Source of the DNA: Bosea sp. OAE506
GTDB lineage: Bacteria; Pseudomonadota; Alphaproteobacteria; Rhizobiales; Beijerinckiaceae
Assembly (NCBI RefSeq): GCF_040546595.1
Contig: NZ_JBEPOB010000001.1
Location: forward strand, 1,799,001-1,863,000
DNA length: 64,000 nucleotides
Reading direction: 5' to 3'
Shown here: positions 22,355 to 33,660 of the stretch, in pieces
How positions within the stretch are numbered: the first letter of the stretch is position 1
Layout of the letters: each line of letters opens with the position of its first letter
Position numbers and translations under genes: made by a program
The notes under the pieces: model-generated
Told to the model about the DNA's origin: nothing
What the model saw: only the letters and a program-made list of their open reading frames with translations
The model's database searches: none

Positions 22355-22951
22355 TTAAGACATGATGCGAAACCAAGACCTAACCGCTAAGTTTAACCGA
22401 TCTTGCTCTAATTCGTCAGTGGGGTTGCAATGCGCAATCGGCCCTCTAAGAATATTCAGTTGATTAGATGCGTTGCTAACCGCGGTCTTTGAGCTAAAAA
22501 TTGTTTCGAATAAATCCCAATTATCTGTTATGATTTGTGATAATTCGCCAAATGTTGTGTAGTCAATCAAGTTCTCGGATCTGGGGGTTATTCCAGAATC
22601 TACTTCTTTTTTCTGTCTCAGCGCGGCCTGTTCCTTTATGCGTTTCTCATCGATCCTGGCGCTCTCCCACCAATCAGGCCCTTCCGCTTCCAAAAGAATA
22701 TCCGCAACTAGGCGTCGTATTGAATTTTCCAAACAATAGAATATCTCATAAAATTCCGACATTCTCAGCGACTCAGCCCTGAGAGATGCTTCGAATTGCT
22801 CATATTCCGATGTCTTCCGGCTCCTTTCCTTGCGAGGTAGGTGTCCAAGATCGATGCCGAACTGCCGTTCAATACGCGACATGCCCGATGCGATCTGCAA
22901 TCCGGACATGCCAAAGGCTCGGATTAGTCCATCAGGCCGCTTAGGCATCAT
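22355..22951 (-). CDS. Swt1-like HEPN domain protein
   Basis: 198-residue protein with a C-terminal HEPN domain of the Swt1 type. CLENSIRR lies at about 73-80, WWES at 94-97, and IDYTTFGELSQIITDNWDLF at about 129-148. LRGPIAH gives the Rx4H motif (R169, H174) that marks catalytic HEPN ribonucleases. The frame is intact. The DNA is visibly AT-rich against its neighbours, suggesting transfer. The start overlaps the end of a decayed DUF5343 gene by 11 bases, so the two were probably one operon. Toxin or defence function is inference. Confidence 0.75.
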   Translation of the reverse strand: MMPKRPDGLIRAFGMSGLQIASGMSRIERQFGIDLGHLPRKERSRKTSEYEQFEASLRAESLRMSEFYEIFYCLENSIRRLVADILLEAEGPDWWESARIDEKRIKEQAALRQKKEVDSGITPRSENLIDYTTFGELSQIITDNWDLFETIFSSKTAVSNASNQLNILRGPIAHCNPTDELEQDRLNLAVRSWFRIMS

Positions 22952-23576: not shown

Positions 23577-23746
23577 TTCAATCCCGGTGTAGGTGCAGAG
23601 ACGAAATCGAGGCTACACAAGGCGCACGATTCTGCAAGTTGAGCGCTTAGCTGCAATTTCTCGCAACCGGAGCGTTTTACCGTCCGCGCAGCGATATGCC
23701 TCCTACAGCTATGGGTCGCGACAACTCCGGGTTGCGTTTCGGAAAG

Positions 23747-23799
23747 GCGCGGGGAACCCCTCTCCTGTAAGGAGAGGGGCTGGGGAGAGGTGTCGGCCC
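23747..23799. repeat. Family C hairpin, third copy
   Basis: GCGCGGGGAACCCCTCTCC followed by a 5-base loop and GGAGAGGGG. It is a diverged copy in the same orientation as the left arm of the DUF559 inverted repeat some 250 bases downstream. Confidence 0.8.
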
Positions 23800-23858
23800 C
23801 TGGACCAGCGGGGCGCAGACCTCACCGCCGCCGAGGCATAAGGCGCCGGCTCCTTCCC

Positions 23859-23989
23859 CGTCATGGTCGCCCTTGTGGCGACCATCCACGTCTTGCGACG
23901 CCAATGGCGGGCGAGCCGCTCTTTGGAAGGGCATCGCCGATCGTTCCTGCGTAAAGACGTGGATGGTCGGGACAAGCCCGACCGTGACG
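23859..23989. repeat. Family A element, CCACGTCTT subtype
   Basis: Outer CGTCATGGTCG and CGACCGTGACG-like ends. The inner arms are ATCCACGTCTT and AAGACGTGGAT, not the commoner CATCTC/GAGATG. The same inner arms recur in the phoU-phoB element. Confidence 0.85.
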
Positions 23990-23994
23990 GTGAG

Positions 23995-24495
23995 GCGCGG
24001 GGAACCCCTCTCCCGGATGGGAGAGGGGCAGGGGTGAGGGACCGCCCTCGCCGCTTGAGGCTCACGCTAGCCGCTGGCCGCCTTGCGGATCGCAGCCAAA
24101 ACGGCATCCCGGTCATCGATGATCTCGGCATTCCGAAACCTGATCACGGTGAAGCCAAAGCGCTCGATCTCGGACGTCCGCTCGGCGTCATAGCCCGCTT
24201 CCCAGCCATGCTGGCGTCCATCTACCTCGACGATCAGCCTGCGGTCGATGCAGACGAAATCGAGGGTGTAGCCCAGAAGCGGAACCTGCCGGCGGAACTT
24301 GAGCCCATCGAGACGGCGGTTGCGCAGCAGCGACCACAGGATGTCCTCGGGCTCGGTGGATTGCCGTCGGAGCCGTCTCGCGAATCGGCGCTGTTCGGAC
24401 GTCATGCGCCGTGATGCTGACGCTGATCGCATCGACGATCAATGGCGGTCCCTCACCCCTGCCCCTCTCCCATCCGGGAGAGGGGTTCCCCGCGC
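23995..24495. mobile_element. Candidate mobile unit: DUF559 gene inside a perfect 52-bp inverted repeat
   Basis: Bases 23995-24046 and 24444-24495 are exact reverse complements over 52 bases, with mismatches directly outside on both sides. Each arm holds its own hairpin (CCCCTCTCCC with GGGAGAGGGG). The only gene between the arms is a DUF559 nuclease on the minus strand. No target-site duplication was seen. A gene flanked by inverted palindromes recalls the REP/RAYT arrangement, but mobility is inference. Confidence 0.55.
24067..24432 (-). CDS. DUF559 (Vsr-like) endonuclease-fold protein
   Basis: 121-residue protein of the DUF559 family, related to very-short-patch-repair nucleases with a PD-(D/E)XK fold. 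The N-terminal helix region (ARRLRR... EDILWSLLRNRRL, 18-41) is followed by FRRQ at 46-49. The active-site set is D58, E69, D71 and H75 in LDF...VEVDGRQH. No cellular role is established for this family. Starts at 24432 and 24405 (MTSEQRRF) are both possible; neither has a strong ribosome-binding site. It is enclosed by the 52-bp inverted repeat. Confidence 0.88.
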   Translation of the reverse strand: MRSASASRRMTSEQRRFARRLRRQSTEPEDILWSLLRNRRLDGLKFRRQVPLLGYTLDFVCIDRRLIVEVDGRQHGWEAGYDAERTSEIERFGFTVIRFRNAEIIDDRDAVLAAIRKAASG

Positions 24496-25108
24496 GTCCC
24501 GCGAAAAACTAATCCCCGCCGCTTCTTTCTGACCCTATCCTGCCACCACCTCATCCCCGAGGGGCAGCCATCCGGAAGGCAAGCCGTTGGTGGGGGTGGG
24601 CGCGGCGCCTGCGGCTGGCTTTGCACCCCGGTCCCGGGAGGCTTCGGGGCACCGCCCTGGGGGTACTACGGCCCCTGTGCGAGGAGCTCGCTGGAACGGT
24701 CGCTGGCATCACGTCTTCGTCCCATGCCTGACGGCGCGACAACCCGATGAGGGGAACTGGCGTCTAGGGCTCGCGGCGGAGGCTGGCTTTCGACCCGATA
24801 AGCGCGGCCCGGAGTGCGAAATCGCCGACAAGCGGAGCGCCACGGGGCGTGCGGATGGTGGCTCAACCCATCCGCGCCGCATCCTGGCTCAACGGATGCG
24901 GATCTGAGACCCACGCGCCTCGCGGCGCTCCGCTGCCCCTCGTCATCAACCGACCCCGGAAGGCGGGCGGGGATTTGTTGTGCCCGTCATTCTCGGGCGA
25001 AGCGAAGCGCAGACCCGGGAATCTCGGGCCGGAAGAGGCAGGGGAGCCTCTCTCGTCCCGAGATGCTCGGGTCGAGCCCGAGCATGACGCGCGGGGCGCG
25101 GGAACCCC
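24433..25108. other. 676-base stretch without a convincing gene
   Basis: After the right arm of the DUF559 repeat, 24550-24760 is a dense block of short GC hairpins (for example CCCCG/CGGGG and GGGGCC/GGCCCC pairs). At 24850-24905 GGCTCAAC occurs twice beside ATCCGC-type inverted repeats. A 63-residue minus-strand frame at 24551-24742 is open but Arg/Pro/Ser-rich and not protein-like. A structured RNA is possible; none was recognised. Confidence 0.5.
24985..25089. repeat. Family A palindromic element
   Basis: A CGTCATTCTCGGG...CCCGGGAATCTC hairpin with an extended GCGAAGC-type loop, followed by GAGATGCTCGGG and CCCGAGCATGACG. It ends just before the HdeA-like gene's 3' end. Confidence 0.85.
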
Positions 25109-33544: not shown

Positions 33545-33660
33545 AGCCCTCATCCTGAGGAGCCGCGAAGCGGCGTCTCGAAGGATGCTCCAGGAGGCTC
33601 CGGAACCATCTGGAGCATCCTTCGAGACGCGCTCTTCGAGCGCTCCTCAGGATGAGGGCT
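33545..33660. repeat. Family B palindromic element before the TRAP genes
   Basis: Same nested structure as the copy at 30843: outer AGCCCTCATCCTGAGGAGC and inner GTCTCGAAGGATGCTCCAG arms, both perfectly paired. The variable hairpins between the arms differ from the other copy. Confidence 0.9.

Follow-up and report, generated by a model that had tools for sequence, protein, structure and literature searches.

A DUF559 nuclease gene between inverted triplex-type palindromes in Bosea: a putative mobile unit and a candidate partner for BoxC/PIT repeats

The 64,000-nucleotide stretch of Bosea sp. OAE506 DNA analysed here (the window; contig NZ_JBEPOB010000001.1, positions 1,799,001 to 1,863,000) contains a small nuclease gene of the DUF559 family enclosed by two palindromic arms. 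An earlier reading made from the letters alone (the sequence-only reading) described these arms as a perfect 52-bp inverted repeat. They are exact over that length and form the longest perfect inverted repeat within 23901-24600; when extended they reach 55 nt with a 98% match. The same reading held that the DUF559 gene is the sole gene inside and that the arms share their hairpin with a palindrome at 23747, and it was right on both counts: one gene only lies between the arms, with the right arm 11 bases upstream of its first ATG, and the CCCCTCTCC hairpin is present in both arms and, as a third copy, at 23758. This hairpin appeared a mean of 0.00 times in 100 shuffles of the window and, given also the perfect match over 52 bp, a chance origin for the repeat was rejected. 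The gene is the sole DUF559 match in the whole genome (5.0 Mb, one contig). Six sites in that genome, spread over three regions, fit the strict palindrome pattern: three in the window, one at 1997333, and a further two, at 3079723 and 3080155. Two of the six are the DUF559 arms; the palindrome is therefore present at low copy number in this Bosea genome.

Table 1. Features at and around the DUF559 locus (window positions; REP, repetitive extragenic palindrome)
Feature	Positions	Strand	Description
Left arm	23995..24046	+	hairpin CCCCTCTCCC-GGAT-GGGAGAGGGG, spacer CA, third block GGGGTGAGGG toward gene
Right arm	24444..24495	-	perfect inverted copy of left arm; G-rich tail toward gene
DUF559 (PF04480) nuclease gene	24067..24432	-	Pfam profile match, E 1.8e-38
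Putative mobile unit, about 509 bp	23996..24504		portion missing from paralogous stretch L008
Solo palindrome, same class as arms	23747..23790	+	TGTAA loop, GGGGAGAG third block
Inverted pair, CGTC-type REP-like palindromes	23855..23993		arms 23855-23894 / 23954-23993, 85% complementary; just outside unit
Separate repeat, about 470 bp, short imperfect inverted ends	24505..24980		borders unit on right

Each arm consists of a 10-bp stem with a loop of 4, a second loop of 2 and a third block, GGGGTGAGGG, whose sequence is the purine strand's mirror image (GGGGAGAGGG) except for one A-to-T substitution (first 8 positions scored). One published account describes a motif of this kind, the BoxC or potential intrastrand triplex (PIT) motif of E. 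coli and other bacteria, as three consecutive blocks with a stem of 6-15 nt, loops of 1-6 nt, no more than one mismatch (above 7 nt) and a third block that mirrors the purine strand (PMC4666352). The window arms lie within those limits for blocks, stem, loops and mirror, and have the architecture of this motif. They share with the published motif a pyrimidine/purine hairpin followed by a mirror-image purine block; that motif is described as dispersed and intergenic, and at times arranged in inverted pairs (PMC4666352). The palindromes described here are also dispersed, multi-copy and intergenic, with six sites in the Bosea genome and numerous copies of the arms in the genomes G027 and G208.

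The DUF559 protein matches the PF04480 profile with 131.2 bits against a curated cut-off of 20.6. Close relatives align from a later methionine, and for this reason its true start may lie nine codons downstream of the first ATG, at MTSEQ. The modelled fold matches the homing endonuclease I-Bth0305I (PDB 3r3p) and the very-short-patch repair endonuclease Vsr, with which DUF559 shares 24% identity in a structural alignment. Its catalytic domain is predicted to have the fold of the EDxHD homing endonucleases, the class of I-Bth0305I. Residues D58, E69, D71 and H75 are invariant. The gene is under purifying selection, with a ratio of nonsynonymous to synonymous change (dN/dS) of 0.09-0.21 against six relatives and 0.13 against the nearest; dN is also well below dS among three copies in G027. 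In Caulobacter, the DUF559 protein VsrA is reported to cause an SOS response in cells without a cytosine methyltransferase (PMC12907096).

We found that DUF559 genes and palindromes of this class occur together across bacteria. DUF559 is present in 93 of the 149 genomes of the window's GTDB family, at 0 to 10 copies per genome. The family set comprised 69 DUF559 loci from the 70 matches with the best E-values among those listed (L035, at a contig edge, was left out), and the 30 best-scoring loci each of ParE and GIY-YIG served as controls (four GIY-YIG loci at contig edges, L115, L117, L128 and L139, were left out). A Y-class hairpin (pattern CCYTCYCC, at most 350 bp from the gene) accompanies 68/69 DUF559 genes, 0/30 ParE genes, 0/26 GIY-YIG genes and 6/191 shifted placements, and hairpins stand on both sides in 43/69, 0/30, 0/26 and 0/191 cases, respectively; the pattern was devised after the first loci had been viewed, so the family counts are partly post hoc. 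Strong pairs, that is inverted pairs scoring at least 22 within 400 bp, were present at 49/69 DUF559 loci as against 0/30 ParE loci and 2/120 shifted placements on the same stretches. Counted by genus, all 26 DUF559 genera have the hairpin and 22 of them a strong pair, while none of 21 ParE genera has a strong pair. A second, named set of 80 loci, the best of 221 relatives, was fetched and counted later with the pattern unchanged, and some of its Bosea records possibly come from genomes that are also within the family set. Here the hairpin was found on any side at 69/80 loci (shifted placements 26/528) and on both sides at 48/80 (1/528), and a strong pair at 54/79 (1/528; L197 was left out of the inverted-repeat count). 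The hairpin-bearing named loci are spread over eight phyla: Pseudomonadota, Bacteroidota, Chloroflexota, Thermodesulfobacteriota, Cyanobacteriota, Planctomycetota, Actinomycetota and Caldifarciminota. The pairing of DUF559 with the palindrome is general and specific across phyla. Our literature search, which covered mostly listings and text passages and was thin on subscription journals and preprints, found no link of DUF559 or ycjD with palindromic repeats.

The third block of the triplex motif is also widespread among these loci. With no more than one mismatch, T accepted for A and the second loop allowed to reach 31 nt, a mirror block follows the hairpin in 157/312 orientations in the family set (46/312 when shuffled) and 166/345 in the named set (41/345 when shuffled), about half being the ceiling because every palindrome is counted on both strands. 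The tails point to the gene in 106/157 and 109/166 of these cases. The second loop often exceeds the 6 nt allowed in the published motif, in some arms growing to a small hairpin of 14 nt or more, and some relatives' arms are therefore not strict triplex motifs; this distinguishes them from the BoxC/PIT motif as published, as does the bracketing of one specific nuclease family.

The stems divide into three subtypes, CTCTCC, TTCTCC and CTCCCC, and both arms are of the same subtype at 82 of the 96 loci where both could be typed. We placed subtypes on a tree of 149 DUF559 proteins, of which 127 had a subtype and 22, whose loci gave no single clear one, were set aside. The tree requires 28 subtype changes, against a mean of 54.5 and a minimum of 48 in 200 shuffles, and the nearest relative from another genus shares the subtype in 86/127 cases, against a mean of 46.9 and a maximum of 65 in 300 shuffles (Bosea records merged); these figures derive from few alignment columns, the clustering is inflated by shared ancestry, and genus codes and names could be matched only in part. 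Within the genome G027, three loci of one DUF559 clade have CTCCCC arms and two of another clade have TTCTCC arms. These comparisons indicate that palindrome subtype tracks DUF559 relatedness across genera.

Empty sites had been proposed in the sequence-only reading as a sign of movement, and two were found, a paralogous stretch of the same genome and a junction between two genes. Window positions 23742-25093 have a paralogue in the same genome, L008, from which the unit is missing: the counterparts of 23742-23995 and of 24505 onward are 5 nt apart. Because L008 lacks exactly that portion, the unit probably extends over about 23996-24504 rather than from arm to arm. In Sphingomonas parapaucimobilis the unit lies exactly between pntAa and pntAb; at L286, in a genome from the group most similar to that species, these genes are 3 nt apart with no unit between them. 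A second genome of the group (L284) carries at this junction a DUF559 gene, matched in Pfam at E 6.8e-26 and furnished with arms of its own; we infer that the genomes of L283-L286 are sphingomonads. Other inserts occupy the junction in L283 and L285, one of them a HicA/HicB-like pair in which HicB passes the Pfam cut-off and HicA falls short of it. Since two genomes carry other inserted genes there, this junction is possibly a hotspot of insertion. No target-site duplication was seen by eye at L008 or at the pnt site, where the flanks have diverged.

Copies within single genomes point in the same direction. Three units of G027 are 84-87% identical over 571-613 bp, a length that reaches slightly beyond each arm, and have no collinear match further out. 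By eye, L046 and L067 have a further inverted stretch outside the palindromes (CACGGCTGTCCGGTTGAG), and the unit may there have a second, outer pair of ends. The arms of one G027 unit are also found elsewhere in that genus, both singly and paired at distances of about 36-45 bp, which, judged by coordinates, leaves no room for a gene. The nearest Bosea genome has a 94% identical gene that is inverted, lies across a neighbouring repeat and has a different palindrome on one side. Among 20 Bosea regions compared there by blastn (four matched on one side only), the gene was found in 3, remnants in 2 and neither in 15. The Bosea region is a mosaic of repeats, and it therefore furnishes no more than supporting evidence for mobility. 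The repeat at 24505-24980 has several copies in this genome and is found in many of 61 Bosea genomes, among the matches listed. Several units occupy conserved sites in sister species (Caulobacter L179/L187/L194 and Brevundimonas L165/L166/L184); recent copying, one of the two options offered in the sequence-only reading, is not needed to account for the identity of the arms. No plasmid relatives of the unit were found at the DNA level in PLSDB.

The sequence-only reading likened the locus to REP-flanked genes for REP-associated tyrosine transposases (RAYTs). The REPtron, composed of REPs and a RAYT, does have a nuclease gene between inverted palindromes and gene-less palindrome copies elsewhere (PMC3733652). 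The analogy is apt, but the locus is not a REPtron: the nuclease is a PD-(D/E)XK DUF559 protein, not an HUH tyrosine transposase, the DUF559 arms have a triplex-type tail, and the window arms lack the GTAG tag. No HUH transposase was found within the unit, nor did the Bosea genome give a Y1_Tnp match, and RAYT-driven spread was rejected on the latter ground. By analogy, we read the locus as REPtron-like, with a nuclease of an unrelated kind. A homing endonuclease homes into a single target. The DUF559 gene differs from that of I-Bth0305I in being bounded by palindromes and in occurring at many sites, and its likeness to Vsr lies in the predicted fold. Insertion sequences and miniature inverted-repeat transposable elements (MITEs) resemble the unit in their terminal inverted repeats and empty sites; only DUF559 was found in this unit, however, and no target duplication was evident between its diverged flanks.

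The E. coli member of the family, ycjD, was matched in 3365 of 5426 genomes of that species. A 61-base query from the palindrome next to ycjD had matches in 4889 of the 5426, at a median of 16 places per positive genome, and palindromes remain in genomes without ycjD. Inspection of DH5alpha by eye revealed a degenerate palindrome that overlaps the 3' end of ycjD and another before fabI. A clean empty site in E. coli was sought and rejected, an efflux operon being present at the site in the two ycjD-less strains inspected. Deletion is likewise reported to have removed REPtrons from many E. coli strains (PMC3733652). The idea that the E. coli TRIP1 repeats belong to the same family was a guess from their name; it was not borne out by the accessible part of PMC10888264 and was not used.

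Taken together, the empty sites, the same-genome copies that are alike only over the unit and the purifying selection on the gene lead us to favour, with modest confidence, the view that the locus is a self-contained mobile unit consisting of a gene for a nuclease of predicted Vsr fold and ends formed by two inverted BoxC/PIT-type palindromes. In such a unit the DUF559 nuclease would recognise the extruded form of the palindrome, be it a hairpin, a cruciform or a transient triplex, and would nick or cut the DNA beside it. Much as with homing endonucleases, repair of the break would then copy to a new site either the unit itself or, in trans, a palindrome pair that lacks the gene. Single palindromes and pairs without a gene would have arisen as non-autonomous derivatives, the status proposed for REPs relative to RAYT units. 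Some loci weigh against this interpretation. Among eight DUF559 loci from a plasmid collection the hairpin was found at 3/8, a strong pair at 3/8 and either at 4/8; E. coli, one Sinorhizobium and two cyanobacterial plasmid loci were negative in both tests, and the E. coli ycjD locus was negative in the strict hairpin and pair tests. The sequence-only reading, which named a lack of such flanks at other DUF559 genes as grounds against itself, is partly supported: flanks are present at most loci by the family (68/69) and named (69/80) hairpin counts, and at half of the plasmid records.

The palindromes might instead spread by other means, with DUF559 sharing the same tolerant intergenic sites or travelling as cargo between them. 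Palindromes do occur solo, persist in E. coli strains without DUF559 and lie on either side of a SEC-C gene in a Bosea genome, yet this account is unlikely given that small, scattered genes of the same bacterial family have no hairpins (ParE 0/30, GIY-YIG 0/26), that subtype follows DUF559 relatedness from genus to genus and that the pairing is seen in eight phyla. The SEC-C-motif gene in question (Pfam E 3.5e-5; L009 1482-1970, same genome as the window) is small, and the arm-class palindromes around it have differing subtypes and outward tails, unlike those of the DUF559 unit. An alternative that we also regard as improbable is a resident pair with a role in genome maintenance, in which DUF559 would trim or repair triplex or hairpin DNA under autoregulation by the adjoining palindromes, with neither partner now mobile. 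The Vsr-like predicted fold, the conserved sites in Caulobacter and Brevundimonas, the purifying selection and the SOS response behind which VsrA stands in Caulobacter cells lacking a cytosine methyltransferase (PMC12907096) would all suit such a role, but a copy number of 0 to 10 per genome within one family, same-genome copies at unrelated sites and the empty sites would not. It is very unlikely that the inverted hairpins, strong as they are on either side of the gene, are terminators or RNA-duplex elements that insulate and silence a potentially toxic nuclease, since no terminator-like site was found in 23700-24700, earlier work saw no promoter or terminator activity of PIT elements (as reported in PMC4666352), and the G-rich third block and the match between subtype and protein would be left unexplained.

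The GIY-YIG controls revealed what may be a second pairing. Strong inverted pairs were present at 17/26 GIY-YIG loci of the window's family (L111-L140), and these belong to another palindrome class. GTCAT faces outward on both sides at 14/26 GIY-YIG loci compared with 4/69 DUF559 and 4/30 ParE loci; the strict CGTC-REP form occurs there as pairs at 4/26 and on any side at 8/26. CGTC-type REPs are described as being without a dedicated transposase (PMC3733652); should the GIY-YIG pairing hold, it would bear on another gap noted in print. The inverted CGTC-type pair in Table 1, which adjoins the DUF559 unit, is of this class. A long inverted pair with no gene inside, CCTCATCCTGAGGAGCCGC..GCGTCTCGAAGGATG, lies at 33550-33657 of the window, and by eye it is of the class seen around some GIY-YIG genes (L118, L127). 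A gene for a HEPN_Swt1 domain protein (PF18731, E 1.2e-9; 22355-22951, minus strand), possibly a defence-type gene, adjoins the repeat cluster.

We put forward, tentatively and as a proposal whose chances fall somewhat short of even, that DUF559 is the dedicated mobiliser of BoxC/PIT palindromes across bacteria, a lone PD-(D/E)XK enzyme acting on hairpin or triplex DNA, that small GIY-YIG nucleases serve CGTC-type REPs likewise, and that nuclease-palindrome pairs form a general and previously unseen category of mobile DNA. Palindromes of the triplex type are scattered through many bacterial genomes, including that of E. coli, and are described in print as having no mobility gene beside them; for E. 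coli none was reported to be found (PMC4666352). Their specific pairing with a single nuclease family, seen in eight phyla, points to a candidate partner for these repeats, offers an assayable function for a domain of unknown function and opens the origin of the repeats to direct test. The DUF559 nuclease is perhaps the partner that these repeats of unexplained origin have lacked.
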